Shown here: piece by piece, positions 33,784 to 60,677 of the stretch
Layout: every line of letters starts with the position of its first letter
Position numbering within the stretch: position 1 is the first letter of the stretch
Source of the DNA: Dietzia psychralcaliphila
Lineage (GTDB): Bacteria; Actinomycetota; Actinomycetes; Mycobacteriales; Mycobacteriaceae
Assembly (NCBI RefSeq): GCF_003096095.1
Contig: NZ_CP015453.1
Location: 620,001-684,000, forward strand
Direction: 5' to 3'
DNA length: 64,000 bases
The notes under the pieces: model-generated
Told to the model about the DNA's origin: nothing
Seen by the model: the letters and a program-made list of their open reading frames with translations, nothing else
Databases searched by the model: none
Made by a program: the position numbers and the translations under genes

Positions 33784-33821
33784 CGTGGCTCCACGGTGGC
33801 GGAGTGTGCACAATATGAGTC

Positions 33822-46170: not shown

Positions 46171-46274
46171 GGCTCCCAGATTAGGAGGCGAACCCGCCCG
46201 GGGTTGTGATGTCCGGATCAGCGCCCGCGGATTCGGGGTGACCGGAGTGTTGACGACGAGGGGGCCGACTGTAG

Positions 46275-46288
46275 GATTGTCGACAATC
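46275..46288. promoter_or_regulatory. GntR/FCD-type operator, site 1
   Basis: GATTGTCGACAATC is a perfect 14-bp palindrome ending 17 bases before the amidase ATG. Its core TTGTCNACAA fits the TTGTnnACAA-type sites of FadR-subfamily GntR regulators. The operon it precedes encodes such a regulator, so autoregulation is likely. A near-identical copy is at 58532-58545. Confidence 0.72.
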
Positions 46289-46305
46289 TGACGGAAGGTA
46301 CACGG

Positions 46306-47778
46306 ATGACTTCTTCCCTGACGGCCCTGGAGCTCTCCGAGCGCTTCCGGAGCGGCTCGCTCTCACCGGTCGACGCCGCGGAGCACGCGCTGGAGGCGAT
46401 CGAGCGGGTCAACGGCGAGATCAACGCCTTCTGCCACCTCGATCGAGAGGCGACCCTCGCGTCCGCCCGCCGATCGGAGGACCGGTACCGGCGGGGTGAA
46501 CCCCTCGGCCCGATCGACGGCGTCCCCACCTCGATCAAGGACATCTTCTACACCCGCGGGGTCCCGACACTGCGTGGATCGCGCCTGCTGGCCGACAAGG
46601 CCGGGGCCGCCGACCCCGACTCGTGGCCCGACGACGCCCCGGTGACCTCCGCGGTGCACGAGGCCGGCTGCGTGGTGATCGGCAAGACCACGACCCCGGA
46701 GTTCGCCTGGAAGGGGGTCACCGACAACACGCTCACCGGCATCACCCGCAACCCGCACGACACGGCGCTCACCCCGGGCGGCTCGAGCGGAGGGGCGTCG
46801 GCCGCGGTCGCCGCCGGGCTCGGGCCCCTCGCCCTGGGCACCGACGGTGGCGGCTCGGTCCGGATCCCCGCGGCGTTCTGCGGGATCGTCGCGCTCAAAC
46901 CCACGTACGGCGTGATCCCCATGTTCCCGTCGAGCCCGTTCGGCACACTCGCCCACGCCGGCCCGATGACGCGCACCGTGGCCGACACCGCCGCGTTCAT
47001 GGACGCGCTGCTCCGTCCGGATCCCCGGGACTGGTCGGCGGTGCCGGCCCGCGCCACGACCCCCGGCCCGGGCGGGTACCTCGCGGCGGCCACCGAGGGC
47101 GCCGGCGGGGATCGTCCGCTCGAGGGTCTGCGTGTCGCGTACAGCCCCGACCTGGGCTTCGGCACCAACGACCCCGAGGTGGAGCGCGAGGTGGCGCGCG
47201 CGGTCGACGTCCTGGCGTCGCTGGGCGCGCGCGTCGAGTCGGTGGACCCCGGGGTCACCGATCCCGTCGACGCCTTCCACGTGCTGTGGTTCGCCGGCCT
47301 CGCGGCGGTCCTGGCGCCGCACGGCCCTGACGCGATCGACCACGTCGACCCGTCGATGCGTGAGGCGCTGGGCCGGTATCACGACCACTCCGCCGCCGAC
47401 TACCTCGACGCGGTGGCGGTCCGGATGGCGCTGGGCGCACGGATGGCCGACTTCCACCAGAGTCACGACATCCTGATCACACCCACCACCCCGATCCCCG
47501 CGTTCGCCGCCGGATCGGACGTGCCACCGGGCTGGCACAGCCCCGACTGGACCTCGTGGACCCCGTACACCTATCCGTTCAACATGACCCAGCAGCCGGC
47601 ACTGAGCATTCCCTGTGGGACCACCGACGCGGGGCTGCCGGTGGGGATCCAGATCGTGGGGGCCAGGTTCGACGACCGGCTCGTCGTGCGGGTCGGTGCG
47701 GCTCTCGAGGCGGCGCTGGGCCGGGTGGTCCCCGCCCCACGGGTCCACGCGGGCGCCGCCGGAGGTGCCGGGGGATGA
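46306..47778 (+). CDS. Amidase signature family hydrolase (catabolic cluster)
   Basis: 490 residues, ATG at 46306 with GGAAGG upstream. The catalytic triad is complete: Lys in IDGVPTSIKDIFYTRG (about residue 78), and the two Ser in LTPGGSSGGASAAVAAG (about 157-173). It resembles GatA-like and aryl-acylamidase-like enzymes. The last codons overlap gntR (ATGA), and the EhuBCDA transporter follows, so it probably hydrolyses an amide taken up by that transporter. The substrate is unknown. It shares little beyond the signature region with the amidase at 1414. Confidence 0.88.
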   Translation: MTSSLTALELSERFRSGSLSPVDAAEHALEAIERVNGEINAFCHLDREATLASARRSEDRYRRGEPLGPIDGVPTSIKDIFYTRGVPTLRGSRLLADKAGAADPDSWPDDAPVTSAVHEAGCVVIGKTTTPEFAWKGVTDNTLTGITRNPHDTALTPGGSSGGASAAVAAGLGPLALGTDGGGSVRIPAAFCGIVALKPTYGVIPMFPSSPFGTLAHAGPMTRTVADTAAFMDALLRPDPRDWSAVPARATTPGPGGYLAAATEGAGGDRPLEGLRVAYSPDLGFGTNDPEVEREVARAVDVLASLGARVESVDPGVTDPVDAFHVLWFAGLAAVLAPHGPDAIDHVDPSMREALGRYHDHSAADYLDAVAVRMALGARMADFHQSHDILITPTTPIPAFAAGSDVPPGWHSPDWTSWTPYTYPFNMTQQPALSIPCGTTDAGLPVGIQIVGARFDDRLVVRVGAALEAALGRVVPAPRVHAGAAGGAGG

Positions 47779-48476
47779 CCGCGCTCGGACCGGACCCTGG
47801 TCCGGAGGCCGCCGCCGGGCTGGAGCCCGTCGTCCGGGAATCGACCCCCGCGCTCATCGCGCGCACCCTCCGCCGGGCGATCTCGGACGGCACGTTCCCC
47901 CCGGGTACGCAGCTCGGGGAGGCCGCGCTGGCGAGGTCGCTCGGCGTGAGCCGCGGGCCGTTGCGGGAGGCCATGCAACGGTTGACGCAGGAGGGGCTGC
48001 TCGTCTCACACCGCAACCGGGGACTGTTCGTCGCCGACCTCTCCGCCGAGGCGGTCGAGGACATGTACCTGCTGCGCACGACCGTCGAGACCGCCGCGCT
48101 GGACCGGGTGCTCGACCTCGGGCTGGGCGTCGTCACCGCCGACGCGCTCGACGCCGCCGTCGACGCGATGGCCTCCCTCGCCGACGAACCGCGGTCGGAG
48201 GCCATGGTCGCCGCGGATCTGGACTTCCACCACGTCCTGGTCGAGGCGGCCCGGAGCCCACGCCTGTCGAGGGTCCACGAGACCGTGCTGGTCGAGACGA
48301 GCATGTGCCTGCACGCCATGCGCGGCACCTACTCGGACGCGGCGTCAAGGCTCATCGAACACCGTGCGATCGCCGACGCCGTGCGTGCCGGGGACCCGGA
48401 TCGGGCCAGGGCGTTGCTGGTCGACCACATGAGGGACGGGCTCGTCCGGGTCCGCGAGGGTGGCGAGGCCCGTTGA
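47775..48476 (+). CDS. GntR-family regulator, FadR/FCD subfamily
   Basis: 233 residues. The winged helix covers about 25-90 (ALIARTLRRAISDGTFPPGT, then LGVSRGPLREAMQRL), and the FCD ligand domain has DLDFHHVLVEAARSPRL and RLIEHRAIADAVRAGD with the metal/ligand histidines. It is translationally coupled to the amidase and followed by the transporter genes. It probably binds GATTGTCNACAATC at 46275 and 58532 and responds to a cluster metabolite. Confidence 0.9.
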   Translation: MTALGPDPGPEAAAGLEPVVRESTPALIARTLRRAISDGTFPPGTQLGEAALARSLGVSRGPLREAMQRLTQEGLLVSHRNRGLFVADLSAEAVEDMYLLRTTVETAALDRVLDLGLGVVTADALDAAVDAMASLADEPRSEAMVAADLDFHHVLVEAARSPRLSRVHETVLVETSMCLHAMRGTYSDAASRLIEHRAIADAVRAGDPDRARALLVDHMRDGLVRVREGGEAR

Positions 48477-48581
48477 GGTTCATTGTTACGGCGAGGTCAC
48501 GCTTGTCGCGTTAGGTGATGGACCCGGACCGCCCGGCCATACGGTCGATGAACCGTTAACTTCAACCCGACGGAGGCACCG

Positions 48582-49460
48582 ATGAACACCACCATCTCGC
48601 GAAGGCAACTGTTCCGGGGAGCACTGGCACTGGGCGGGGTGGTCGCGGTCGGTGGATCCCTCGCCGCCTGCACCACCACGGAGACCGGCGGCCCCGAGGC
48701 CGGCGGAGGCGGCGGCCTCCTCGAGCGGGCCCGACAGCAGGGCCTGCGGATCGCCATCGGCAACGAGCCGCCCTACACCGAGCTCGCTCCGGACGGCACC
48801 GTCACCGGCGCGGAGCCGGACGTCGTCAGGGCCGTCGCCGCGCGGATGGGGATCGACAGGGTCGAGGGCATCGTCTCCGGCTACGACGCGATGATCCCGG
48901 GGCTCAAGGCCAACAGGTGGGACACCATCGCCGCGGGGTTGTTCATGAAGCAGTCACGCTGCCGCGAGGTCGCCTACGCCTCACCCGTGATCGTCTCCAC
49001 CGAGTCGTTCGGTGTGCGGCCCGGCAACCCGGAGAACATCCTCACCATCGCCGACGTCCTGGAGCGGCCGGACCTGCGCGTGGGTGTGGTCCCCGGCGGG
49101 TTCGAACAGGGCATCCTCGAGACGGCGGGAGTCGGGGCCGGCCAGATCATCAACGTCACCGACGCCCGCGGCGGCGCCGACGCGCTCAACGCGGATCGTA
49201 TCGACGCCTTCCTCCTGCCCACGCTGTCCCTGCGCGAGCTCGAGGGCGTCGAGGTCACCGAGCCGATCGAGGACGCCCCCAGCACGGGTTCGTCCGCCGC
49301 GTTCCGGACCGAGGACCAGGACTTCCTCGACGCCTACAACGAGGAGCTCGAGTCGTTCAAGACCGAGCCCGAGTTTGCCGAGATACTCGAGAAGTGGGGA
49401 TTCGACCCCACCGTCGTCGAGGGCGTGACGACCGAGGAACTCTGCGCCGTCGACGGCTGA
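48582..49460 (+). CDS. ehuB: EhuB-like amino-acid/compatible-solute binding lipoprotein
   Basis: 292 residues. The N-terminus SRRQLFRGALALGG has a twin-arginine pattern and is followed by lipobox SLAAC, so it is a probable Tat-exported lipoprotein. The SBP type 3 domain reads LRIAIGNEPPYTELAPDGTV, SGYDAMIPGLKANRWDTIAA and GLFMKQSRCREVAYASPVIV, which closely follows EhuB of the ectoine/hydroxyectoine importer. The specificity may differ: no ectoine hydrolase or deacetylase genes are seen nearby. It is 105 bases after gntR and could have its own promoter. Confidence 0.82.
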   Translation: MNTTISRRQLFRGALALGGVVAVGGSLAACTTTETGGPEAGGGGGLLERARQQGLRIAIGNEPPYTELAPDGTVTGAEPDVVRAVAARMGIDRVEGIVSGYDAMIPGLKANRWDTIAAGLFMKQSRCREVAYASPVIVSTESFGVRPGNPENILTIADVLERPDLRVGVVPGGFEQGILETAGVGAGQIINVTDARGGADALNADRIDAFLLPTLSLRELEGVEVTEPIEDAPSTGSSAAFRTEDQDFLDAYNEELESFKTEPEFAEILEKWGFDPTVVEGVTTEELCAVDG

Positions 49461-49470
49461 CCGGCGATCG

Positions 49471-50166
49471 ATGGACGCTATCGCCGAATACCTCCCTCTC
49501 ATCCGGCAGGGCTTCATCACCACCGTCCAGGTGACGGTCCTCGGCGCGGCGCTCGCGCTGGTCGTGGCCTTCGCCCTGGGCCTGGCGCGCCTGTCCACCC
49601 ACCGCTGGGTGCGCTGGCCGGCGGCGTGCACCGTGGAGTTCCTCCGCGGCACGTCGCTGGTGGTGCAGCTCTTCTGGCTGTTCTTCGCCCTCCCGTTCTT
49701 CGGGGTCCAGCTCACCGCCATCTTCGCCGGTGTCCTCGCGCTGGGCCTCAACGAGGGCGCGTACGCCTCGGAGGTGGTCCGCGGGTCCATCGCGTCCCGG
49801 CCGAAGGGCCAGACGGAGGCCGCGATCGCGCTCAACATGACGCCCGCCCAGCGGATGCGCCGCATCCTGCTGCCGCAGTCGATCCCGGCGATGCTGCCGC
49901 CCATGGGCAACGTCATGGTGGACCTGCTCAAGAACAGCTCACTGGTCTCCCTGGTGACGGTGGCGGACCTGACCTTCAACGCGGGGCTCATCCGGTCCGC
50001 CACCGGTGAGACCGCCCTGATCTACGGGATCATCCTGCTCCTGTACTTCGTCCTGAGTCTGGTCATCTCGGTGATCATCGCGCTCCTGGAGCGGCGGTTC
50101 TCACCGACCCGTGAGCGCCGGTCGCTGCTCACCGCCCTCACCGGCCGGACGCAGGGGGTGAGCTGA
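49471..50166 (+). CDS. ehuC: Ehu-type ABC transporter permease 1
   Basis: 231 residues with five membrane segments; polar-amino-acid permease family. TVEFLRGTSLVVQLFWLFFA and the following LPFFGVQL closely resemble EhuC. The ATPase-contact loop is SRPKGQTEAAIALNMTPAQR. It starts ten bases after ehuB and its TGA shares one base with the next ATG. Confidence 0.85.
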   Translation: MDAIAEYLPLIRQGFITTVQVTVLGAALALVVAFALGLARLSTHRWVRWPAACTVEFLRGTSLVVQLFWLFFALPFFGVQLTAIFAGVLALGLNEGAYASEVVRGSIASRPKGQTEAAIALNMTPAQRMRRILLPQSIPAMLPPMGNVMVDLLKNSSLVSLVTVADLTFNAGLIRSATGETALIYGIILLLYFVLSLVISVIIALLERRFSPTRERRSLLTALTGRTQGVS

Positions 50167-50822
50167 TGATCTGGGACAACGCCTTCGCGATCAGCATCAT
50201 CCCGGACCTGCTCCGGGGGCTGGTCACCACGGTGCAGATCACCTTCGCCGGCATGGCCATCGCGGCTGTCCTCGGGTTGCTCGTGGCCGTGTTCAGATAC
50301 CTGCGGATCCCGGTGGTCTCGCAGATCCTGGGATTTCTCGTGTACTTCATCCGTGGGACTCCGTTGCTCGTCCAGGCGTTCTTCGTGTTCTACGTCCTGC
50401 CGGAGTACGGCGTCACCATGAGCGCGCTGGTCACCGGCATCATCGTGATCGGCGTCAACTACAGCGCCTATACGGCCGAGGTCTACCGGTCCGGTATCGA
50501 GGGGATCCCGGTGGGTCAGTGGGAGGCCGCCACGGCCCTCAATCTGCCGGGCGGACGCACCTGGACACGGATCGTCCTGCCCCAGGCGGTGCGACGGGTG
50601 GTCCCCCTGTTGGGCAACTACCTCATCCAGATGTTCAAGGACTCGGCCATCCTGTCCGCCATCACCGTCTACGAACTCATGTCCGTGGCCAAGGCGATCG
50701 GGCAGTCGGAGTTCCGCTACATCGAACCCTTCACCATCGCGGCGCTGCTCTACCTCGTCGTGAGCGTCCCGTGCACACTCGTCCTACGTCGATTGGAGAC
50801 CCGCTATGGCACCGTCCACTGA
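50166..50822 (+). CDS. ehuD: Ehu-type ABC transporter permease 2
   Basis: 218 residues with five membrane segments. Markers are FIRGTPLLVQAFFVFYVLPE, GVNYSAYTAEVYRSGIEGIP, VGQWEAATALNLPGGRTWTR and LLGNYLIQMFKDSAILSAIT, the EhuD pattern. It overlaps ehuC by one base and the ATPase gene by 17 bases. Confidence 0.85.
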   Translation: MIWDNAFAISIIPDLLRGLVTTVQITFAGMAIAAVLGLLVAVFRYLRIPVVSQILGFLVYFIRGTPLLVQAFFVFYVLPEYGVTMSALVTGIIVIGVNYSAYTAEVYRSGIEGIPVGQWEAATALNLPGGRTWTRIVLPQAVRRVVPLLGNYLIQMFKDSAILSAITVYELMSVAKAIGQSEFRYIEPFTIAALLYLVVSVPCTLVLRRLETRYGTVH

Positions 50823-51603
50823 GCTCGGCGAGCCAGGGGAACCGATGGTCCGCTTCGAGAAGGTCAGCAAGAACTGGGGGGAGAACAAGGTCCTGCGGGA
50901 GCTCGACTTCACTGTTGCCAAGGGCGAGAAGATCTCGATCATCGGTCCGTCCGGTTCCGGCAAGACCACGATCCTGCGAGTGCTCATGACCCTCGAGTAC
51001 CCGACCTCGGGACGCGTCCTGGTCGAGGGCGACGAGTTGTGGAACACCGACGTCGCGAGGAAGAGGCCCCGCGAGACCAAGCGGATGAGGCAGATCCGCA
51101 GCCGGATCGGCATGGTGTTCCAGCAGTTCAACCTGTTCCCACACATGACCGCGCTGGAGAACGTCATGGAGGCGCCGGTGCACGTGCTGGGCAAGGACAA
51201 GGCGACGGCGCGGCAGGAGGCGGAGGAGCTGCTCGCGCTCGTCGGCCTGGCCGACCATTCAGCCAAGAAGCCGCCGCAGCTGTCCGGTGGCCAGCAACAG
51301 CGCGTGGCGATCGCCCGGGCCATGGCCACGAAGCCGGACATCATGCTCTTCGACGAACCCACCTCGGCCCTGGATCCCGAGCTCGTGGGGGAGGTGCTCA
51401 AGGTGATCCGGGACCTCGCCAACGACTCGACCATGACGATGCTCATGGTCACCCACGAGATGAACTTCGCCCGGGAGATCTCCGACCGGGTGGTGATGTT
51501 CGACGAGGGCGTCGCGGTCGAGTCGGCGCCGCCCGCGCAGTTCTTCGACTCGCCCGGCCACGAGCGCACCCGGAGATTCCTCGGCGCTGTACTGGGGTAC
51601 TGA
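50806..51603 (+). CDS. ehuA: Ehu-type ABC transporter ATP-binding protein
   Basis: 265 residues. Walker A GPSGSGKT is at 47-54; the Q-loop is in IGMVFQQFNLFPHMTALENV, the signature in PQLSGGQQQRVAIARAMA and Walker B in IMLFDEPTSALDPELV. It is a standard polar amino acid importer ATPase. Last gene of the amidase-gntR-transporter transcription unit; its end is five bases from the convergent response-regulator gene, with no hairpin visible. Confidence 0.9.
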   Translation: MAPSTELGEPGEPMVRFEKVSKNWGENKVLRELDFTVAKGEKISIIGPSGSGKTTILRVLMTLEYPTSGRVLVEGDELWNTDVARKRPRETKRMRQIRSRIGMVFQQFNLFPHMTALENVMEAPVHVLGKDKATARQEAEELLALVGLADHSAKKPPQLSGGQQQRVAIARAMATKPDIMLFDEPTSALDPELVGEVLKVIRDLANDSTMTMLMVTHEMNFAREISDRVVMFDEGVAVESAPPAQFFDSPGHERTRRFLGAVLGY

Positions 51604-51607
51604 ACGC

Positions 51608-52225
51608 TCAGCGGGTGACCGCGAGCCCGCTCCGCATCGCCCAGGCCACCGCCTGCGGTCTGGTCGTCACGCCGATCTTGCGGTACGCGTCCCGGATGTA
51701 GGTCTTGACCGTGTTGATCGACAGGTAGCACGCAGAGGCGATCTCCTCGTTGGACCTGCCCTGGGCGATCAGCGCGAGCATCTCCGATTCGCGGGGGCTC
51801 AGACCCGCCTCGCCGGTCGGCCACAATCCGGCGGAGGCGTACTCGCCGTCGTGGCCGAGTAGCCGGACCTGCTCGCCCGCCGCGACACGTTCGACGGCCC
51901 CGACCAGATCCTCACCGGACAGTGACTTGGACAGATACCCCGTGACCCCCGAGGCGAAGGCCTCCTCGACGGCCCGCGGGTCGGTGACGAACGAGTACAC
52001 GGCCACGGCGCCGATCGTCGGATCGAGGACCATGGACGAGCACCGGGCCCGCCAGTTCACCGGGGAGGCGAAGGTGTCGAACAGCAGGACGTCCACGGGT
52101 ACACCGTCGCGGGAACCGGGCCCGTTGACCACCACCTCGACCCGGTCGGGGTAGGGGGCGAGCAGCGCGTGCACGCCGGCGATGACCACCGTGTAGTCGT
52201 TTACCACCGAAACCCTGACGGCCAT
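51608..52225 (-). CDS. LuxR/NarL-type response regulator, orphan and degenerate
   Basis: 205 residues. The receiver domain is unusual: the acidic pair is ND (VSVVNDYTVVIAGV), the phospho-site candidate is the Asp in VDVLLFDTFASP, and the Lys in GYLSKSLSGEDLV is kept. The LuxR helix-turn-helix is LSPRESEMLALIAQGRSNEE with YLSINTVKTYIRDAYRKIGV. No sensor kinase is adjacent. It is divergent from a WhiB gene; the 94-base gap holds a CACCCCTGGGGGTG palindrome. Whether it acts without phosphorylation is open. Confidence 0.82.
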   Translation of the reverse strand: MAVRVSVVNDYTVVIAGVHALLAPYPDRVEVVVNGPGSRDGVPVDVLLFDTFASPVNWRARCSSMVLDPTIGAVAVYSFVTDPRAVEEAFASGVTGYLSKSLSGEDLVGAVERVAAGEQVRLLGHDGEYASAGLWPTGEAGLSPRESEMLALIAQGRSNEEIASACYLSINTVKTYIRDAYRKIGVTTRPQAVAWAMRSGLAVTR

Positions 52226-52254
52226 CCGCGAATTTTATCAGTTGTGACCCATCC

Positions 52255-52268
52255 CACCCCTGGGGGTG
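52255..52268. promoter_or_regulatory. Palindrome between the response regulator and whiB genes
   Basis: CACCCC-TG-GGGGTG is a 6-bp inverted repeat around two bases, 30 bases upstream of the LuxR-type gene and 52 before the WhiB gene. ACCCC/GGGGT tracts are the kind of site used by the LuxR-type regulator RamA in corynebacteria; that comparison is loose. It could be the binding site of the neighbouring regulator. Confidence 0.35.
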
Positions 52269-52319
52269 TGCCGAACAACCTGGCGCGTGCAAGAAGCTGG
52301 ATCCGACGGGGGGAGAAGC

Positions 52320-52592
52320 ATGACGACCGCTACCAGCAGGATCGACGAACGATGGGCATGGGCCGAGTACGGGATGTGCCAGGACGTGCCGGACCTGTTC
52401 TACAACACCGAGGACGAGTCGAAGAGCCTGCGTCGACGCAAGGAGACGGCGGCGAAGAAGCTGTGCGCGCAGTGTCCGGTGATCGACAGGTGCCGCGCGC
52501 ACGCGGTGGCACACCGCGAGCTCTACGGCGTCTGGGGCGGGATGTCGGAGTCCGAGCGGCACCGTCTCGCCGGCCGCGTCCGCACCGGCTGA
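52320..52592 (+). CDS. WhiB-family iron-sulfur regulator
   Basis: 90 residues from the ATG at 52320, with GGGGAGAAG just upstream. Four cluster cysteines: one in EYGMCQDVPDLFYN and three in LCAQCPVIDRC (C-x2-C-x5-C). The GVWGG turn is in LYGVWGGMSESER, followed by a basic end, RHRLAGRVRTG. Size and layout suit a WhiB1- or WhiB2-like Wbl protein that binds the primary sigma factor. Which paralogue it is cannot be said. It is paired head-to-head with a LuxR-type regulator. Confidence 0.92.
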   Translation: MTTATSRIDERWAWAEYGMCQDVPDLFYNTEDESKSLRRRKETAAKKLCAQCPVIDRCRAHAVAHRELYGVWGGMSESERHRLAGRVRTG

Positions 52593-52641
52593 CAGCCCAC
52601 CCGGTGCCCGCCTGACCGGCGCCCGGCCCCGTGGGCGCCGG

Positions 52642-54105
52642 TCAGCGGACCGGGATCGCCACGAGCTTGGTCTCCACGAACTCCTCGATGCCCGTCAGCC
52701 CGCCCTCGCGGCCCAGGCCGGACTGCTTGATGCCTCCGAACGGGGCGGCCGGATTGGAGACGATCCCGGTGTTGATGCCCACCATCCCGGCCTGCAGGCG
52801 CTCGGACATGGTCATCGCGCGGTCGAGATTCTCGGTCATCACGTAGGAGACCAGGCCGAACTCGGTGTCGTTGGCCATGGCCACGGCCTCGTCGTCGGAG
52901 TCGAACGGGATCAGGGCGGCCACGGGGCCGAAGATCTCGGTGGACATCAGGTCGGAGTCGGCGGCCACCCCGCTCAGGACGGTGGGTGGGTAGAAGTATC
53001 CGGGGCCCTCGACGCGCGAACCGCCGCACAGCACCTCGGCGCCGCGCTCCACGGCGTCGTCGACCAGCTCGACCACCTTCGTCACGGCCTTCTCCTCGAC
53101 GAGCGGGCCCACGTCGGTGCCCTCTCGCGTGCCGTCGCCGACGGTCAGGGCGGACATCTTCTCGGTGAGGCGTCGTCCGAACTCGTCCAGTACCGACCGG
53201 TGCACGAGGATCCTGTTGGCCGAGGTGCAGGCCTCGCCCATGTTCCGCATCTTGGCTGCCATCGCGGCGCCCACGGCGGTGTCCATGTCCGCGTCCTCGC
53301 ACACCACGAACGGCGCGTTCCCGCCGAGCTCCATCGATGTGCGCAGCACGCCGCGCGCGCACTGCTCGAGAAGCATGCGGCCGACGGGTGTGGATCCGGT
53401 GAAGGACAGCTTGCGGGCGATGCCGGAGTCGATCCACGGCTCCACCACACCGCCCGGGTCGGTGGTGCACACCACGTTGAGCACGCCGTCGGGAAGTCCG
53501 GCCTCGCGCAGGACGTCCACCACGTACAACGAGGTCAGGGGGGTGAGGTTGGCCGGTTTGAACACCATGGTGCAGCCGGCGGCGATGGCCGGGCCGATCT
53601 TGCGGGTGGCCATGGCCAGGGGGAAGTTCCACGGGGTGATGAGGATGCAGGGGCCGACGGGCTCGTGGGTCACCATGAGCCTGGTCTTGCCGTCAGGCGA
53701 GCGGCGGGCGTCGCCCCGGACGCGGCAGGTCTCCTCGGAGAACCAGCGGAAGAACTCGGCGCCGTACGCCACCTCCCCCTTCGCCTCGGCCAGTGGTTTT
53801 CCCATCTCCGTGGTCATGAGCAGCGCCAACTCGTCGGCGCGGTCGACTATCAGCTCATACGCCCGGCGCAGGATCTCGGCCCGCTCACGCGCCGGCACCG
53901 CGGCCCACGAGGCCTGGGTGCGGCCCGCGCACCCGATCGCGGCGGCGGCGTCATCGGCTCCTCCGTCGGCCACGGTCGCGATTACCTCGCCGGTGGCGGG
54001 GTTGACCACCTCGAAGGTGGCGCCGGAGGCGGCATCGCTCCACTGCCCGTCGACGTGGACGCCGGTGCCGAGCGCGGCGATGATGTCGGTGACGGAGCGG
54101 GTCAT
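52642..54105 (-). CDS. Succinate-semialdehyde dehydrogenase-like aldehyde dehydrogenase
   Basis: 487 residues. ALDH superfamily, GabD group: cofactor-site Lys in TMVFKPANLTPLTSL (about 183), catalytic Glu259 in SMELGGNAPFVVCEDADM, and nucleophile Cys293 in GEACTSANRILVH. The usual GabD GQTC reads GEAC. It is the third gene of an operon: its ATG overlaps the stop of the FAD/Fe-S dehydrogenase by four bases, and AGGAGG lies just upstream (rc of 54111-54116). It probably oxidises the semialdehyde made by the aminotransferase encoded two genes upstream. The chain length of the substrate is unknown. Confidence 0.88.
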   Translation of the reverse strand: MTRSVTDIIAALGTGVHVDGQWSDAASGATFEVVNPATGEVIATVADGGADDAAAAIGCAGRTQASWAAVPARERAEILRRAYELIVDRADELALLMTTEMGKPLAEAKGEVAYGAEFFRWFSEETCRVRGDARRSPDGKTRLMVTHEPVGPCILITPWNFPLAMATRKIGPAIAAGCTMVFKPANLTPLTSLYVVDVLREAGLPDGVLNVVCTTDPGGVVEPWIDSGIARKLSFTGSTPVGRMLLEQCARGVLRTSMELGGNAPFVVCEDADMDTAVGAAMAAKMRNMGEACTSANRILVHRSVLDEFGRRLTEKMSALTVGDGTREGTDVGPLVEEKAVTKVVELVDDAVERGAEVLCGGSRVEGPGYFYPPTVLSGVAADSDLMSTEIFGPVAALIPFDSDDEAVAMANDTEFGLVSYVMTENLDRAMTMSERLQAGMVGINTGIVSNPAAPFGGIKQSGLGREGGLTGIEEFVETKLVAIPVR

Positions 54106-57100
54106 GTGGGCCTCCTGGTGGGCACGGGGTTAAGGGGCACGGGGTTAAGGGGCACGGGGTTAAGGGACACGGGGTTAAACGGCACGGGGTCGGGGCTGTG
54201 ATCGGGATCAGGGTCGAGGAGTTCGAACAGGTGGAGGCCGGCGCGGCCGGATCCGGTGGTGGGGTCGGTGGCACCGAGGTGGCCGACCTGGGTGGCGCAG
54301 GAGAAGCCGTCGGTGAGCACGGGCGCGTCCCGGTCGGCCCGCAGGGCGGGGGCCAGCGCCTGCTCGGCGACGGCGGCGGTCACGGCCTCGTGTCCGGCGG
54401 TGAACCCGAAGTCGCCGGCGACACCGCAGCACCCGGTGGCCTCCCGGACCGAGCCCACCCCGAGCGCGGTGAGGGTCGCCCTCTGCACGCGGTTGCCGAA
54501 GGTCGCGTACTCGTGGCAGTGGGTCTGCACCGTGACCCGGTCCGGGGCCGTACCGCCGGGCCAGGCGGGGGCACGCCCTTCGCCGGCGAGTCGGCCCAGG
54601 TGATCGGCCGCCGACCGGATGCGGGCCGCGACGCGGCGGGCGGTGTCGGCGTCCGGGGTGTCGGCGAGCAGGCGGGGGAGGTCCTCGCGGAGGGTGGCCG
54701 CGCAGCTGGGTTCGACGACGACGACGGGGACCTCGCCCCCGTCCGGACCGCGGATCGCGTCGAGGTGCCGGGCGGTCGCACCCATGGTGCGGCGTGCGGC
54801 GGAGAGCCTGCCGGTGGTGACGTGGGTCAACCCGCAGCAGTGGCTGGCGCTGCACGCGACGGAGGTGTGCACGCCGCCCAGGACGCGGGCGGCGGCGCCG
54901 GCGACCGTGGGGCGCAGTCCGCGGGTGAAGGAGTCGAGGAACAGCACGATCTCGGCCGAGGTCCGCCCTTCCGGATGACCCTGTCCGCGTATCGTCCACA
55001 CGCTGTCCGGGACGCGGGAGAGTTCGCGCCGCAGCTCGGAGGCGGAGGTGAAGCGCGGCAGGGTGCGGTCCGTCGCGAGGCCGCCCAGTCGTGCGGCGGC
55101 CCGGCCGGCGCGGGTGCCGAGCACGGCGTTGAGTGGTCGGGCGGCCCGCGCCGTGCCGCGCAGCCACAGTGGGAGCAGTCCGAGGGAGTAGTGGGCCACG
55201 GGCCGGACTCTGCGCCTGTAGCGCCGGTGTAGCGCCTCGGACTTGAAGGCGGCCATGTCCACGCCGGTGGGGCAGTCCGAGGAGCAGGCCTTGCACGCGA
55301 GGCACAGCTCCAGCGAGTCCTCGACCGCCGGGTCGTCGATGGGGAGTGTCCCGCGGACCACCTCCTGCAGTACGCGGGCCCGGCCGCGGGTGGAGTCCTT
55401 CTCGTCGCCCGTGGCGCGGAAGGACGGGCACATCACGCCGCCGGTGGACGTGCGGCAGCGGCCCACCCCGATGCAGGCCTGGACGGGGTGTGCACCGTCG
55501 GCGGAGGTCAGCAGGCCCAGGTCGCGCCTGCCCACCCCGGCGAGGGCGAGGTCGGCGTCGAGTGGCCGTGTGGCGGTCAGCCCGCCCGGGGCGAGGATTC
55601 CCGAGGGGTCCCAGATGCGGGCGAATCGGGCGAAGGTGTCCAGCATCTCGGGCGAATACATGACCGGCAGCAGTTCCGAGCGTGCCCGGCCGTCGCCGTG
55701 CTCCCCGGAGAGCGACCCGCCGTGGCTCACCGCGAGGTGGGCGGCGTCGGTGCAGAAGGCGCGCATGACGCCCCGGCCCTCCTCGGACCGCAGGTCGAAG
55801 CTGATGCGGATGTGCATGCATCCGGCGCCGAAGTGCCCGTACATGACTCCGGTGAGGCCGTGCCGCCCGAGCAGTCCCCGGAAGTCGTCGAGGTAGTCCG
55901 CCAGGCGCTCGGGGGCGACGGCCGAGTCCTCCCAGCCGGGCCAGGATTCGATGGTCGCGCCGGTCGCGGGGTCGGTGAGCCGCGAGCTCAGCCCGGCGCC
56001 GTCCTCGCGCACCCGCCACAGGTCCGCGCGGGCCACCGGATCCGTCACGACGAGAGCCTCGACCGCGTGGCCGTCGCCGGTGAGGTCCGCGGCGAGTCCG
56101 GCCACCCGGTCGTCGAGCGTTCCGGCCCGCGAGCCCGACCCGTCGTCGGCGTCGGCGTTGGCGTTGCCGTCGCCGTCGTCGTCGAGTTCCACGAACAGCC
56201 ACGCCCTGCCCGCGGGGAGGGCGGCCACGGCGTCGGCGCCGCGCCGCTCGCGCATGGTCTCGACGATCACCTCGTCGATCCCCTCGACAGCGGTGGGGTG
56301 GTGCCGCAGGATCGCGGGCACGTCCCGGGCGGCGTCCACGACGTCCGCGTAGCCCACGACCAGCAGTCCGGTCCGGGCGGAGCGGGGTACGGCGCGCATG
56401 GTCGCGGCGGTGACCACCGCGCAGGTGCCCTCGGAGCCGACGAGGGACCGCGCCACGTCGAATCCCTCCTCGGGCAGCAGGTGCCGTAGGTGGTAGCCGG
56501 ACACCTGGCGGGGCAGCCGTCCGAGTTCGGTGCGGATGGCGGCCAGGTGGTCGGCGGCCAGGTCGCGCAGCTGCGCGGTCAGGTGCTCGGCACGTGCGGT
56601 CGCCGCCGCGTCCGACGGGTCGGTGGCCTCGATGCCGCTGCGGGTGGCGGTCAGGCGCAGGCCGTCGGCGGTGACGATCCGCAGCGACTCCACGTGGTCC
56701 GCGGTCCGGCCGTGGCGCACCGAGTGGTTGCCGCAGGCGTCGTTGCCGATCGCTCCGCCCAGGCAGGCGCGGGACTGGCTGGAGGGGTCGGGGGCGAAGG
56801 TCAGCCGGGAATCGGTGGCGGTGTGGACGGCCGCGCGCAGGGCGGTCAGGACGCACCCGGCCTCGGCGGTGACGGTCCGGGCGCCCTCGTCCACCCCGAG
56901 GACCCGGTTCATGTGCCGCGACAGGTCCAGCACCAGGCCGGTGCCGATCGCGTTGCCGGCCATGGACGTCCCGCCGCCGCGCGCGGTGGCCGGCACGCCC
57001 AGCCGGTGGCACACGGCCAACGCGGTGGCGACCTCGGCCTCCGTCCGCGGGAACAGGACGGCCGCCGGCACGACCCGGTAGTTGGAGGCGTCATAGGAGT

Positions 57101-57218
57101 ACTCGGCGATCCGGCGGGGGTCGGCCTCGGGCGCCAGACCCGCATCCACGAGCGCCGCCACCAGCGCCTCGACGGGCGCCTGTCCGGCGTCAACCGACGC
57201 GGCGACGCGGGAGGTCAT
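54102..57218 (-). CDS. FAD-linked, Fe-S cluster 2-hydroxyacid dehydrogenase (YdiJ/D-2-hydroxyglutarate dehydrogenase-like)
   Basis: 1038 residues from the ATG at 57218; the frame is open to 57368. The FAD-binding domain has PRTEAEVATALAVCHRLGVP, RGGGTSMAGNAIGTGLVLDL and GGAIGNDACGNHSVRHGRTA. The FAD-oxidase C domain includes MYGHFGAGCMHIRISFDLRS and SGEHGDGRARSELLP. An Fe-S domain has CIGVGRCR and CLACKACSSDCPTGVDM, and two CCG domains have ACSASHCCGLTHV and EATGCCGVAGDFG. E. coli YdiJ has the same order and size and oxidises D-2-hydroxyglutarate. Both ends overlap their neighbours by four bases. The C-terminus ends in NPVPL repeats. Confidence 0.88.
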   Translation of the reverse strand: MTSRVAASVDAGQAPVEALVAALVDAGLAPEADPRRIAEYSYDASNYRVVPAAVLFPRTEAEVATALAVCHRLGVPATARGGGTSMAGNAIGTGLVLDLSRHMNRVLGVDEGARTVTAEAGCVLTALRAAVHTATDSRLTFAPDPSSQSRACLGGAIGNDACGNHSVRHGRTADHVESLRIVTADGLRLTATRSGIEATDPSDAAATARAEHLTAQLRDLAADHLAAIRTELGRLPRQVSGYHLRHLLPEEGFDVARSLVGSEGTCAVVTAATMRAVPRSARTGLLVVGYADVVDAARDVPAILRHHPTAVEGIDEVIVETMRERRGADAVAALPAGRAWLFVELDDDGDGNANADADDGSGSRAGTLDDRVAGLAADLTGDGHAVEALVVTDPVARADLWRVREDGAGLSSRLTDPATGATIESWPGWEDSAVAPERLADYLDDFRGLLGRHGLTGVMYGHFGAGCMHIRISFDLRSEEGRGVMRAFCTDAAHLAVSHGGSLSGEHGDGRARSELLPVMYSPEMLDTFARFARIWDPSGILAPGGLTATRPLDADLALAGVGRRDLGLLTSADGAHPVQACIGVGRCRTSTGGVMCPSFRATGDEKDSTRGRARVLQEVVRGTLPIDDPAVEDSLELCLACKACSSDCPTGVDMAAFKSEALHRRYRRRVRPVAHYSLGLLPLWLRGTARAARPLNAVLGTRAGRAAARLGGLATDRTLPRFTSASELRRELSRVPDSVWTIRGQGHPEGRTSAEIVLFLDSFTRGLRPTVAGAAARVLGGVHTSVACSASHCCGLTHVTTGRLSAARRTMGATARHLDAIRGPDGGEVPVVVVEPSCAATLREDLPRLLADTPDADTARRVAARIRSAADHLGRLAGEGRAPAWPGGTAPDRVTVQTHCHEYATFGNRVQRATLTALGVGSVREATGCCGVAGDFGFTAGHEAVTAAVAEQALAPALRADRDAPVLTDGFSCATQVGHLGATDPTTGSGRAGLHLFELLDPDPDHSPDPVPFNPVSLNPVPLNPVPLNPVPTRRPT
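54121..54195. repeat. 15-bp tandem repeat, five copies, in the 3' end of the FAD dehydrogenase gene
   Basis: GGCACGGGGTTAAGG is repeated at 54121, 54136 and 54151 without change, then in two diverged copies at 54166 and 54181. On the minus strand it encodes NPVPL pentapeptides at the C-terminus. The period keeps frame, so copy number could vary without breaking the gene. It ends next to the ribosome site of the following dehydrogenase gene. Confidence 0.9.
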
Positions 57219-58504
57219 GCGGCCCCGTCGCACACCCGGTGGACCGCACGGGTGAACCTCTCGACGCCGGCGTCCACCTCGTCCGCTGTCACCACCAGGG
57301 CCGGGATGAGGCGAACCACCGAACCCGTGGGACCGCAGGTGAGGGTGAGCAGGTCCTCGTCGACGCACGCCTGCTGCACGGCGCCGGCCAGGCGCGCGGC
57401 CTCCACCGCTCCTACACTGCCGGCGGGCGCGGTGGGGTCGCCGAACTCGACGCCCAGCATGAGCCCGGTCCCGCGGATGTCGCAGATCTCGCCCACGTCG
57501 CCGAGGCTACGCCGCAGTCCCTCGAGGAGCTGGGTTCCGCGCTCGGCCGAGTTGGCCACCAGGCCTTCCCTCTCCACCACTCCCAGGGTCGCCACGCCGG
57601 CCGCGGCCGCCACGGCGTTGCCGCCGTAGGTGCCGCCCTGGGATCCGGGCCAGGCCTTGGCCATGATCGCCTCGGGCGCGGCGATCGCGGAGATGGGGAA
57701 GCCCGAGGCGATTCCCTTGGCGGTGATGATGATGTCCGGGACCAGGCCGTCGGTGTGCTGGTGGCCCCAGAAACGGCCCGTGCGCCCGATGCCGGCCTGG
57801 ACCTCGTCGAGCACGAGCAGCGCACCGGTCCGGTCGGCGCGGTCGCGCAGTCCCTGCAGGTAGCGCGGCGGGGTGGCCATGTAGCCACCGTCGCCGAGCA
57901 CCGGCTCGATGAGGAACGCCGCGATCTCGCGGGCGTCCACGCGGGAGGCCATGAGGTAGTCCAGCTCGGCGAGCGCGAAGTCGATCGCCTCGTCCTCGCT
58001 CCACCCGTGGCGCAGGGCGTGCGGGAACGGGGTCATCACCACGCCGCCCATGAGGGGGGAGAAGCCGGCGGAGAAGCGCGTGCCGGCGGTGGTGAGGCTC
58101 GCCGCGGCCACGGTCCTGCCGTGGAAGCCGCCCTGGACGGTGACGATGTTGGGCCGGCCGGTGGCCATACGGGCCAGTCGGACCGCGGCCTCGACCGCTT
58201 CGGATCCCGAGTTGGCGTAGAAGACCGAGTCGATCCCCTCCGGCAGGTGCTCGCCCAGTTTCTCCGTGAGTTGCAGCAGCGGCTGGTGCATGACGGTCGT
58301 GTACTGCGCGTGGATGATCTTCCCGCACTGCTCCCGCGCGGCCTCGACCACGTCGGGGTGGCAGTGCCCGGTGCTGGTCACGCCGATTCCGGTCGTGAAG
58401 TCGAGGTAGGCGCGGCCGTCCGTGCCGTGGATCCACGAACCGAGTGCGTGGTCCACCACGACGGGTGTGGCCTGCTTGAGGTGGGGCGACAGGTGCGCGG
58501 TCAT
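57215..58504 (-). CDS. Class III (omega-amino acid) PLP aminotransferase
   Basis: 429 residues from the ATG at 58504. Fold type I class III: the PLP lysine is Lys263 (IIITAKGIASGFPIS), with Asp233 in LLVLDEVQAGIGRTG pairing with the pyridine nitrogen, and YANSGSEAVEAAVRLAR binding the phosphate. It resembles GABA, 5-aminovalerate and diaminobutyrate transaminases, which produce a semialdehyde. As first gene of the operon with the FAD dehydrogenase and the aldehyde dehydrogenase, it would feed the latter. A GntR-type palindrome lies 28 bases upstream. Confidence 0.9.
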   Translation of the reverse strand: MTAHLSPHLKQATPVVVDHALGSWIHGTDGRAYLDFTTGIGVTSTGHCHPDVVEAAREQCGKIIHAQYTTVMHQPLLQLTEKLGEHLPEGIDSVFYANSGSEAVEAAVRLARMATGRPNIVTVQGGFHGRTVAAASLTTAGTRFSAGFSPLMGGVVMTPFPHALRHGWSEDEAIDFALAELDYLMASRVDAREIAAFLIEPVLGDGGYMATPPRYLQGLRDRADRTGALLVLDEVQAGIGRTGRFWGHQHTDGLVPDIIITAKGIASGFPISAIAAPEAIMAKAWPGSQGGTYGGNAVAAAAGVATLGVVEREGLVANSAERGTQLLEGLRRSLGDVGEICDIRGTGLMLGVEFGDPTAPAGSVGAVEAARLAGAVQQACVDEDLLTLTCGPTGSVVRLIPALVVTADEVDAGVERFTRAVHRVCDGAA

Positions 58505-58531
58505 GAGGCCAGTCTGTGACCGATCCCGGCA

Positions 58532-58545
58532 GATTGTCAACAATC
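58532..58545. promoter_or_regulatory. GntR/FCD-type operator, site 2
   Basis: GATTGTCAACAATC differs from the site at 46275 by one base. It lies between the divergent aminotransferase operon (start 58504) and the hydroxyacid dehydrogenase gene (start 58591), so one regulator could control both. Confidence 0.7.
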
Positions 58546-58590: not shown

Positions 58591-59580
58591 ATGACGCAGC
58601 CCCACCGGGACCCGGGCGCCCGACCGACAGTCGTCCTCCTCACCGCCGACGGCGTCGTCCCGCCCACCCACCTCGAGGAACTCCGTGGACTCGCCGACGT
58701 GCGCGAGTGCACCGCCGACACCCTGGCCGAGGCGCTACCGGGCGCCGAGGTCCTGTTCGTGTGGGACATCTTCTCCGGCGCGCTGGCCTCCGCCTGGCAC
58801 GCCGCCGACGCGCTGCGGTGGGTCCACGTGGCCGCCGCCGGGGTCGACGCGCTGCTGTTCGACGGGCTCCGGGACTCCGACGTCGTGGTCACCAACGCCC
58901 GCGGCGTGTTCGACGGCCCCATCGCCGAATACGTCCTGGCCTGCGTTCTCGCCCACGACAAGCAGCTGCACCACACCGAGAGGCTGCAACGCGCCGGCGT
59001 GTGGCGCCACCGCGAGACCACCCGGGTGGCGGGACGCCGCGTACTCGTCGTGGGAACCGGGGGGATCGGACGGGCCACCGCGCGGCTGCTGAGGGCGGTG
59101 GGGACGGACGTCCGTGGGGCGGGGCGCCGACCATCCGACGACGACGAGGACTTCGGCGTCGTCCTGGACTCGGCCCGACTGGTCGAGCACCTGGGCGACG
59201 TCGACCACCTGGTCATGGTGGCCCCGCTGACCGAGGCGACGCGCGGGATGCTGGGGGAGGCCGAGTTGGCCGCGCTCCCGGACGGCGCCCACGTGATCAA
59301 CGTGGGCAGGGGCCAGCTCGTGGATCAGGACGCGCTCACGCGCGAGATCGCCGCGGGCAGGCTCTCGGCGCACCTGGACGTCCTCGTCGTCGAACCGCTC
59401 CCCGACGGCGACCCACTGTGGACCCTCGACGGCGCGCACGTCAGCCCCCACATGTCGGGCGACGTGGTGGGCTGGCGGGACACCCTGTCCGAACAGTTCC
59501 GGGACCACCTGAGCACGTGGGCGCGCGGCGGAGTGCCCGGCCCGGTGGTCGACAAGAGTCGGGGGTACGTGAGCGGCTGA
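58591..59580 (+). CDS. D-isomer-specific 2-hydroxyacid dehydrogenase
   Basis: 329 residues from the ATG at 58591; the frame is open to 58516. The NAD-binding loop is RVLVVGTGGIGRATARLL, the catalytic Arg is in INVGRGQLVDQDAL, the Glu in VVEPLPDGDPLW and the His in HVSPHMSGDVVGW. Interconverts a 2-oxo acid and a D-2-hydroxy acid with NAD(P)H. It is divergent from the aminotransferase operon and shares its operator. With the FAD-linked hydroxyacid dehydrogenase it suggests a D-2-hydroxy acid intermediate in the pathway. Confidence 0.88.
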   Translation: MTQPHRDPGARPTVVLLTADGVVPPTHLEELRGLADVRECTADTLAEALPGAEVLFVWDIFSGALASAWHAADALRWVHVAAAGVDALLFDGLRDSDVVVTNARGVFDGPIAEYVLACVLAHDKQLHHTERLQRAGVWRHRETTRVAGRRVLVVGTGGIGRATARLLRAVGTDVRGAGRRPSDDDEDFGVVLDSARLVEHLGDVDHLVMVAPLTEATRGMLGEAELAALPDGAHVINVGRGQLVDQDALTREIAAGRLSAHLDVLVVEPLPDGDPLWTLDGAHVSPHMSGDVVGWRDTLSEQFRDHLSTWARGGVPGPVVDKSRGYVSG

Positions 59581-59616: not shown

Positions 59617-60528
59617 CTACGGGGCACCCAGCCCCAGCCCGAGGGCGGCCTCGGTGAACGCTTCGACGAAGGCGTGCAGCGGCCGGCGGCGGTCGTCCCG
59701 CTCGCGGTAGGCGATCGAGACGGTCCTGGTGAGGGCGTCGCTCAGCGGAAGCACGTCGACGTCCGCGGGGGAGGTGCTCAACCCGAGGTCGGAGGCCAGT
59801 GTCACGCCGAGGCCGGCGGCGACGAGTGCGAGTGCCGTCGACTGCTCACCGGCCTCGTGACGGATGTGCGGCTCGAACCCGGCCTCCCGGCACGCGATCC
59901 GCACCGCCCTGCCGAAGTGTGAGCGCGGGTGGGCCAGCACCCAGGGCTTGCCCTCGAGGTCGCGTAACGACACCTCGCCGGCGTCGATCGACCCGCGGGG
60001 GGCCACGAGGTGCAGCGATTCCACGGCGATGGGCGTCCGGGTGAGTTCGGGGACCCGAGCCATCGGATAGCTGGAGTAGTCCAGGACGAAGGCCAGGTCG
60101 AGTGAGCCGTCCCGGACCGCGCCCGTGGTGTCCTCCGGGGCGAGCTCGCGGCTCCGCACCTCGATCCCCGGGTGGTCCCGCGCGAGCACGTGGATCCCGG
60201 CCGGCAGGAGTGTCGAGGCCACCGACGCCCACACCCCCGCCGTGAGAGTGGTCCCGACCCCGGCCCGCGCCGATTCCATCGCGTGACCGGCGTCCTCCAC
60301 CGCGGCCAGGATGGTCTCCGCGTGCCCGGCCAGGACCAGCCCGGCATCGGTGAGTCCGATCCGCCGGCCGCGCCGCTCGAACAGCGGGGTCCCCGCCTCC
60401 CGTTCGAGCAACGCGAGCTGCTGTGACACGGCGGAGACCGTGTAGTCCAGCGCCCCCGCGACCGCGGTCACGGTCCCGCGCCGCTCCAGTTCGCGGAGCA
60501 GTCTGAGTCGGTGTAGTGACGGCTCCAT
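59617..60528 (-). CDS. LysR-family transcriptional regulator
   Basis: 303 residues from the ATG at 60528; the frame is open to 60684. The N-terminal winged helix is HRLRLLRELERRGTVTAVAG with YTVSAVSQQLALLEREAGTP; the C-terminal effector domain follows (TAGVWASVASTLLPAGIHVL, LDLAFVLDY, EAGEQSTALALVAAGLGVTL). It is divergent from the Glu/Leu-type dehydrogenase, the usual arrangement for a LysR protein and its target. It is convergent with the hydroxyacid dehydrogenase. Confidence 0.9.
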   Translation of the reverse strand: MEPSLHRLRLLRELERRGTVTAVAGALDYTVSAVSQQLALLEREAGTPLFERRGRRIGLTDAGLVLAGHAETILAAVEDAGHAMESARAGVGTTLTAGVWASVASTLLPAGIHVLARDHPGIEVRSRELAPEDTTGAVRDGSLDLAFVLDYSSYPMARVPELTRTPIAVESLHLVAPRGSIDAGEVSLRDLEGKPWVLAHPRSHFGRAVRIACREAGFEPHIRHEAGEQSTALALVAAGLGVTLASDLGLSTSPADVDVLPLSDALTRTVSIAYRERDDRRRPLHAFVEAFTEAALGLGLGAP

Positions 60529-60677
60529 GGACCCGAGCGTAGGGCCTGACCGGGGACAGTGCAGAAAAAGTGAACGGTCGGGTCCATCGATTCTCGCTGG
60601 ACCGGCGGCCGTGCGCTGTCCCATGCTTGGGGGACCCCGCAGGAGAGTCGGGGAGAGGCGCTGAGGAGGCGAGCACC

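Follow-up and report, generated by a model that had tools for sequence, protein, structure and literature searches.

Predicted GntR operators unite a Dietzia psychralcaliphila gene locus with a candidate ectoine-type catabolic regulon of Actinomycetota

Genes and predicted operators of the Dietzia locus

The 64,000-nucleotide stretch of Dietzia psychralcaliphila DNA analysed here (contig NZ_CP015453.1, positions 620,001–684,000 of the forward strand; hereafter the window) contains transport and catabolic genes grouped around a GntR-type regulator gene and two palindromic sites (Table 1). The original prediction, made from sequence, described these as one GntR regulon built around an undescribed amide/amine pathway. 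Both copies of GATTGTC[G/A]ACAATC lie where it had placed them, and its gene identities are borne out: an amidase of the amidase signature (AS) family, a GntR/FCD regulator, an EhuB/C/D/A-like importer, a class-III aminotransferase, an FAD/Fe-S oxidase, a GabD-like aldehyde dehydrogenase and an NAD-dependent 2-hydroxyacid dehydrogenase. The predicted Dietzia regulon would comprise amidase-gntR-(ehuBCDA), gabT-fad-aldh and d2hdh.

Table 1. Features of the Dietzia locus (window coordinates; scores in bits against model cut-offs)
Feature	Position	Strand	Description
Promoter	46250–46277	+	Sigma-70-like, TTGACG-16-TAGGAT; overlaps operator 1
Operator 1	46275–46288	.	GATTGTCGACAATC, perfect palindrome; ends 17 bases 5′ of the amidase ATG (46306)
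amidase	46306–47778	+	Amidase signature family; NF004815/PRK06169, 667 vs 506
gntR	47775–48476	+	Predicted repressor, a GntR regulator carrying an FCD ligand domain; Pfam GntR 61.7 and FCD 73, both over cut-off
ehuB	48582–49460	+	EhuB-like substrate-binding protein; 223.3 vs 190.9, over equivalog cut-off
ehuC	49471–50166	+	EhuC-like permease; 261 vs 196.95, over equivalog cut-off
ehuD	50166–50822	+	EhuD-like permease; 264.9 vs 205.2, over equivalog cut-off
ehuA	50806–51603	+	EhuA-like ATPase; 338 vs 345.4, narrowly under equivalog cut-off
LuxR/NarL-type regulator	51608–52225		Between ehuA and aldh
aldh	52642–54105	-	Aldehyde dehydrogenase, GabD/SSADH-like; TIGR01780, 568.4 vs 646.35, under SSADH cut-off
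fad	54102–57218	-	FAD/4Fe-4S D-2-hydroxyacid dehydrogenase-like protein, YdiJ-like
gabT	57215–58504	-	Class-III omega-aminotransferase, GabT-like; GABA/acetylornithine-type neighbours; under GABA transaminase cut-off
Operator 2	58532–58545	.	GATTGTCAACAATC, between gabT and d2hdh
d2hdh	58591–59580	+	NAD-dependent D-2-hydroxyacid dehydrogenase, far from every named model
lysR and gdh	59617–61913		LysR gene and Glu/Leu/Phe/Val-type dehydrogenase gene, beside d2hdh

Operator 2 has one mismatch when read in reverse and is situated in the 86-base gap between the starts of gabT (58504, minus strand) and d2hdh (58591, plus strand). Across the 3,904,836 bases of the genome, exact matches to GATTGTCNACAATC are restricted to operators 1 and 2, the next best match having one mismatch; among the matches listed, the 12-base core ATTGTYRACAAT has two copies and the reversed control none. 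Matches to the palindrome with up to three mismatches number 14 in the window against 6.2 expected, a count reached in none of 100 shuffles. A matrix built from 163 non-Dietzia sites, which were chosen by TTGTNNACAA so that the core is fixed by construction, ranks operators 1 and 2 highest in the window (scores 33.2 and 30.6), with a third score of 11.1 and a maximum over 20 shuffled windows of 11.5. The third-best site lies at 33799–33818, level with the best shuffled score. A chance palindrome was rejected on the combined basis of the shuffles, the genome-wide rarity of exact sites, the matrix ranking and the conservation of the sites in relatives. The promoter at operator 1 was found once against a mean of 0.0 in shuffles, and a scan of the gabT–d2hdh gap gave no promoter-like match at operator 2.

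No NCBIfam model reaches its cut-off on the regulator. Its assignment to the FadR/FCD type follows from an N-terminal GntR winged helix, a C-terminal FCD domain and conserved palindromic GT..AC sites, themselves predicted, near the regulated promoters. Stop and start codons overlap at three junctions (amidase–gntR, gabT–fad and fad–aldh), which suggests that the genes at each junction are translationally coupled.

Distribution of the operator and gene set

Within the genus, gntR is present in 20 of 23 genomes (that of the window included), and 13 of the 19 other gntR-bearing neighbourhoods were fetched. In all 13 the amidase gene adjoins gntR and is preceded by the identical 14-mer GATTGTCGACAATC. 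The gabT–d2hdh site is kept as TTGTNNACAA in all ten neighbourhoods long enough to include it (those other than L112, L113 and L114) and as GATTGTYRACAATC in eight; the first G is missing in L107 and the centre reads AG in L115. Orthologous ehuBCDA genes follow gntR in L109, L110, L111 and L114, a second Ehu type (∼35% identity in EhuB) follows it in L112 and L113, and in L105–L107 Ehu genes of identity similar to the second type precede the amidase and are truncated where the stretches end. The importer would thus have been exchanged within the genus at the same locus, and since the one second-type EhuB scored (L112) also exceeds the EhuB cut-off (210 vs 190.9) the kind of ligand seems to have been kept. 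In L104 the d2hdh match is split over two overlapping frames (10682–11667), through either a frameshift or faulty sequencing.

At the level of the order, a gntR match with an E-value of 1e-20 or better was obtained in 65 of 200 genomes. All 40 neighbourhoods retrieved at this level contain TTGTNNACAA; d2hdh is found in 30, and amidase, gabT (three at 29–32% identity) and aldh in 25 each, with the FAD enzyme in none of the 40. A scan of named genomes was confined to the best 80 of 521 loci, 74 of them non-Dietzia, from Dietzia, Gordonia, Williamsia, Arthrobacter, Kocuria, Mycolicibacterium, Amycolatopsis, Kribbella, Cryobacterium and other genera. TTGTNNACAA occurs in 75 of the 80; gene counts in these loci are lower bounds, many loci ending at contig ends. 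Recurrent genes of the relatives that are absent from Table 1 encode an EutD-like hydrolase (m24), an M20 deacylase (m20), an alpha-aminotransferase (at12), two EutA-like proteins (eutA1 and eutA2), a DUF3830 protein and a tartrate/D-malate dehydrogenase (TTC); mhs also recurs.

In the 74 non-Dietzia loci, TTGTNNACAA falls within the upstream stretch (−250 to +20) of gabT in 39/39, d2hdh in 35/36 and ehuB in 9/9 cases, of eutA1 in 42/46, eutA2 in 28/36 and amidase in 20/37, and of aldh in 22/51, mhs in 15/35 and gntR in 19/73, a site between divergent genes being counted for both. Genes that are mostly internal to a unit have it in only 0–2 stretches (at12, 36 stretches; m20, 38; duf3830, 31; ttc, 5). 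The count of 0/38 for m24 is spurious, because the query is extended at its N terminus; in L139 and L140 a site lies 26–27 bases upstream of the m24 match. The mean density, which includes the true sites, predicts 0.04 occurrences of TTGTNNACAA per stretch, and three control patterns together hit 3 of 576 upstream stretches. Among the matches listed, the site also turns up in one of four genomes lacking a gntR match and is absent from G119 and G169, in which the gntR match is weaker; the reversed control core occurs in one of 38 genomes.

The conservation of one site before the same genes across Actinomycetota strongly supports the proposal of a single GntR regulon, in which binding by the regulator is predicted. 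Co-conservation in other genomes had been suggested as a check when the regulon was proposed; the gene set with its sites recurs both in Dietzia and in its Actinomycetota relatives. The regulon is apparently large and undescribed; no publication describing it was found by title.

Outside Actinomycetota, Mesorhizobium sp. AR07 combines EhuR (594 vs a cut-off of 480), EhuBACD, a DoeA homologue (606 vs 613) and an amidase at 47% identity with an M20 protein weakly similar to DoeB2 (216 vs 550), a 2-hydroxyacid dehydrogenase and an EutA-like protein (200 vs 318). Sinorhizobium CCBAU 05631, the source of the closest plasmid EutA2 (38%), has Ehu genes, an EctB-equivalog diaminobutyrate transaminase (620 vs 552), an aldehyde dehydrogenase, an M20 gene and a 2-hydroxyacid-dehydrogenase-type gene of only 226 residues that is perhaps incomplete. 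Identities to the window enzymes are low (Mesorhizobium 2-hydroxyacid dehydrogenase and aminotransferase, 26% each; Sinorhizobium aldehyde dehydrogenase, 36%); with mostly distant enzymes, it is the gene combination that recurs and not the sequences. DUF3830 gave no match in the plasmid collection. In Tistrella the amidase is accompanied by racemase-like genes, with no Ehu genes within the stretch examined, and the gntR matches of Phyllobacterium and Microvirga belong to peptide-importer-type clusters. The Microvirga plasmid locus with the GntR relative (L077) also carries hydroxypyruvate reductase, aldehyde dehydrogenase and tartrate dehydrogenase genes beside its peptide-type importer.

As for genes neighbouring the Dietzia units, the LuxR/NarL-type regulator is present in 9 of the 13 fetched Dietzia loci and in few loci elsewhere. 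The lysR–gdh pair adjoins d2hdh in Dietzia and also in two Gordonia loci; it was rejected as a regulon member because no operator is found there and gdh orthologues (68–69% identity) are unlinked in G060, G097 and G156 (on another contig or more than 2 Mb away). An Rfam scan of the window gave no match. Two proteins encoded ∼20 kb apart (41360–42307 and 61940–62938) appear similar when their translations are compared by eye and are presumably phosphotransferase-like.

Entry modules, lower route and candidate substrate

The full set, with sites before its units, is contained in one stretch in four Arthrobacter loci (L139, L140, L142 and L145) as ehuBCDA; eutA2 and eutA1; amidase-DUF3830-gntR; m20-at12-m24; d2hdh; and gabT-fad-aldh, L139 and L140 having been mapped in detail. 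The m24 product of L140 gives a nearly full-length alignment with Ruegeria EutD (6twk; 349 bits), at12 is closest to alpha-aminotransferases of the alpha-aminoadipate/kynurenine type and m20 is of the ArgE/DapE type. Both EutA-like proteins belong to the Pfam AMDase family and fall under the EutA cut-off. One of the pair has one conserved Cys and an Asp, and the other has two Cys: in alignments with duplicates kept, EutA1 (L037:10240–11785) retains one Cys in 75/76 and Asp at the second position in 74/76, and EutA2 retains both Cys in 61/61. Two more Arthrobacter stretches add no support: that of Hiyo8 has an aminotransferase gene, a GabD fragment and a tartrate dehydrogenase gene near a split gntR, and one plasmid carries no annotation.

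Co-occurrence was counted in the 64 non-Dietzia loci of at least 15 kb. The m24 and at12 genes are together in 36 loci and apart in one. Amidase is together with DUF3830 in 29 and without it in six; amidase and eutA1 are together in 33 and apart in ten. Across the two groups, m24 and amidase occur jointly in 17 loci, whereas 19 contain just m24, 18 just amidase and ten neither gene; d2hdh, gabT and aldh are found with either group. This module-wise occurrence, alone or together, we read as two entry modules that would feed one shared lower route: an EutD-like hydrolase, M20 deacylase and alpha-aminotransferase in one, and an amidase, two EutA-like proteins and a DUF3830 protein in the other. 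Dietzia and two Gordonia loci (L121 and L122; 20 kb each) have the amidase entry without EutA, DUF3830 or EutD, and Dietzia would thus keep only this entry.

The end of the lower route is indicated by an apparent exchange of enzymes. Amycolatopsis-type clusters, in which no FAD enzyme was seen, have a TTC gene directly 3′ of aldh (9 of the 11 loci with such a gene), and the one protein scored (L045) exceeds the TIGR02089 cut-off (520 vs 470 bits) and gives 404 bits to 3flk. The Dietzia FAD enzyme also adjoins aldh, but on its 5′ side. No FAD enzyme at 38% identity or more is found in the five named TTC loci, a comparison taken from the named-locus listing, the fad filter of the co-occurrence count having admitted weak matches. 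With the FAD enzyme replaced by a tartrate/D-malate dehydrogenase, the enzyme that follows the aldehyde dehydrogenase would most simply act on a D-malate-type acid, at which the lower route probably ends. The previously proposed route through a 2-hydroxy omega-amino acid holds up in outline, with its four-carbon form (4-amino-2-hydroxybutyrate to malate) now favoured and its five-carbon form, leading to 2-hydroxyglutarate, disfavoured. A four-carbon route fits an origin from diaminobutyrate, and thereby from ectoine.

The link to ectoine comes from the window EhuB, EhuC and EhuD proteins, which exceed their equivalog cut-offs, from the EutD-like and EutA-like genes in the regulon of the relatives, and from the Mesorhizobium and Sinorhizobium clusters in which similar enzymes stand among ectoine genes. 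All three regulon EhuB proteins scored (that of the window and two of other types) pass the cut-off. At the residues presumed to bind ectoine in 2q88, the window EhuB aligns Glu, Tyr in place of Phe, Tyr, Phe and Arg; 28 aligned EhuB hits (duplicates included) have Glu, Tyr and Arg in all 28 and an aromatic residue at the third position in 28 and at the fourth in 23. The notion of an isolated amide/amine pathway consequently needs to be changed, the relatives' regulon including an ectoine-hydrolase homologue and EutA-like genes. The best reading is now a variant of ectoine-type catabolism; ectoines had been named among the substrates worth testing.

It is slightly more likely than not that an FCD-type GntR repressor, acting on GATTGTYRACAATC sites, governs the uptake and breakdown of an ectoine-type zwitterion, with two entry modules leading into one lower route. 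What these loci show directly is their operators, their gene content, the modular arrangement and the families of the encoded proteins; on this basis the regulator is predicted to sit on the sites as a repressor, and a substrate and order of steps can be proposed. Reduction of a 4-amino-2-oxo acid by the 2-hydroxyacid dehydrogenase would give a D-4-amino-2-hydroxy acid, which the class-III aminotransferase would convert to a semialdehyde and the aldehyde dehydrogenase to the D-malate-type acid. The FAD/Fe-S enzyme, or the tartrate/D-malate dehydrogenase in its place, would then yield oxaloacetate or pyruvate. A more specific version, tentative and on balance doubtful, holds that ectoine and 5-hydroxyectoine are degraded by a new actinobacterial route under one FCD-type GntR repressor, with two modules meeting at 4-amino-2-oxobutanoate and proceeding via D-4-amino-2-hydroxybutanoate, D-malate semialdehyde and D-malate. 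The first module would convert ectoine to diaminobutyrate and, by alpha-transamination, to 4-amino-2-oxobutanoate; in the second, acting on hydroxyectoine, the EutA-like pair would abstract the alpha proton and eliminate the hydroxyl, and the amidase would remove the remaining acyl group. If true, this would give EutA a chemical role.

Several observations weigh against an ectoine-type regulon of this kind. Classical ectoine catabolism needs no D-2-hydroxyacid steps. The EutD-like proteins of the regulon score 412–432 bits (L140 m24, 412), under the EutD cut-off of 613, and the FAD enzyme is far below that of YdiJ (NF049975, 406.1 vs 1350 bits). Both the FAD enzyme and TTC are missing from the DNA examined for eight of nine Mycobacterium/Mycolicibacterium loci (L178 is only 3.9 kb; L166 has the FAD enzyme at 42%). 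Only 4 of 20 further core-bearing stretches of relatives (L083, L092, L093 and L098) hold regulon genes, so in larger genomes the operator core also occurs outside the regulon, in keeping with a common FadR-type operator. Of the seven non-Actinomycetota stretches picked by a d2hdh or EutA2 match, L078 and L203 resemble ectoine clusters and five do not; no ectoine-like cluster was seen at two haloarchaeal 2-hydroxyacid dehydrogenase, two haloarchaeal EutA and one cyanobacterial 2-hydroxyacid dehydrogenase matches. Within Dietzia, no Ehu genes stand beside the cluster in L103, L104, L108 and L115, where only ∼0.8–1.6 kb upstream of the amidase is covered. An EutD/DoeA match is absent from eight Dietzia genomes (that of the window and seven others), and seven lack EutA2 and DUF3830 homologues, both of which were matched in G116 and G156 in the same searches, and an at12 homologue above 28% identity. 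These Dietzia searches covered EutD, EutA2, DUF3830 and at12; M20, EutE, EutB, EutC and EnuR were not sought there, and a separate PF17645 search was uninformative, its control being silent. With none of the four found, ectoine ring opening in Dietzia is unexplained by the genes found. The compound used by Dietzia may be an ectoine whose ring is opened by an enzyme encoded away from the cluster, or else an acylated intermediate or a different zwitterion; ectoine synthase is present in all 12 genomes examined, the window genome included, which makes self-made ectoine another possible substrate.

The same genes could be read as classical ectoine catabolism with additions, the class-III aminotransferase and aldehyde dehydrogenase making aspartate from diaminobutyrate in DoeD/DoeC roles, as such pairs do in the DoeABCD pathway in the part of PMC5320631 concerned, while the FAD enzyme, the 2-hydroxyacid dehydrogenase and the alpha-aminotransferase would do no more than process an oxo acid or redox equivalents afterwards. 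The EutD-like and M20 deacylase genes of the regulon are consistent with this, which we nevertheless consider unlikely: d2hdh occurs with either entry module and almost always has a site upstream, in many cases the one that also precedes a divergent gene, and the alpha-aminotransferase is nearly inseparable from m24 and is missing from all 18 loci that have amidase without m24, which is unexpected for a step after aspartate. The Dietzia regulon might instead serve a different substrate from that of its relatives, as the original prediction would have it, an N-acyl omega-amino-2-hydroxy acid or its lactam being cleaved by the amidase and passed to the same lower enzymes. The reduced amidase entry of Dietzia and Gordonia L121 and L122 accords with such a substrate, and all remaining steps fit it; however, both the window EhuB and the second Dietzia type suggest an ectoine-like ligand, and no natural compound of this description was identified here, which leaves this an improbable account. 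Breakdown of pantothenate is very hard to credit. In that pathway the amidase would be a pantothenase, with beta-alanine passing to the aminotransferase and aldehyde dehydrogenase and pantoate to the dehydrogenases. The classes of enzyme agree with this, pantoate being a D-2-hydroxy acid and dimethylmalate a conceivable substrate for a TTC-like enzyme, but the EutD-like, M20, alpha-aminotransferase, EutA-like and Ehu genes of the regulon would be left without explanation.

Comparison with known systems

Ectoines are widespread salt protectants and nutrients. The near-unique operator, modular gene set and candidate D-malate route make Gram-positive ectoine use and the roles of EutABC testable in culturable soil bacteria, and the GntR protein with its operator is a candidate sensor for ectoine-type compounds. 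In the passages concerned, predicted ectoine consumers are counted among Proteobacteria (PMC5924519), what EutABC precisely do in hydroxyectoine use is described as unknown (PMC8739950), and Gram-positive ectoine use is, by its authors' account, first proposed in 2026, from sequence only, with putative clusters reported in Actinomycetota (PMC13188858).

The clusters of the latter work (Boas Lichty et al., 2026) resemble the present regulon in having EutD homologues, an amidohydrolase (abgB), an aldehyde dehydrogenase and sometimes EhuABCD; they differ in the Bacillales arrangement of pucR-eutBCD-atf with abgB-thrA-adh. Its main text, as far as available, does not contain the words 'GntR', 'amidase', 'hydroxyacid', 'Dietzia' or 'Arthrobacter', and its Actinomycetota clusters are shown in figures.

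Like the EhuABCD-EutABCDE/DoeABCD systems with EnuR/EhuR of Sinorhizobium, Ruegeria and Halomonas, the regulon has an EhuBCDA-type importer, a class-III aminotransferase and an SSADH-like aldehyde dehydrogenase and, in the relatives, an EutD-like hydrolase, a deacylase and EutA-like proteins. EutB, EutC and EutE are not among the recurrent genes identified in the part scanned, in which no search was aimed at them. In contrast to these systems, the regulator is of the FCD type and not a MocR-type EnuR, the deacylase is of the M20 type, and the regulon adds an amidase, DUF3830, an alpha-aminotransferase, an NAD-dependent 2-hydroxyacid dehydrogenase and an FAD or tartrate/D-malate dehydrogenase. 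Catabolism of gamma-aminobutyrate (GABA) by GabT-GabD likewise pairs a class-III aminotransferase with a GabD-like dehydrogenase, but the window proteins fall under the GABA transaminase and SSADH cut-offs and are linked to 2-hydroxyacid dehydrogenases. The regulator itself shares its GntR and FCD domains with the FadR subfamily of GntR regulators, and its predicted operator fits the pattern NyGTM-N0-1-KACNy given for that subfamily in the relevant part of PMC4494728.

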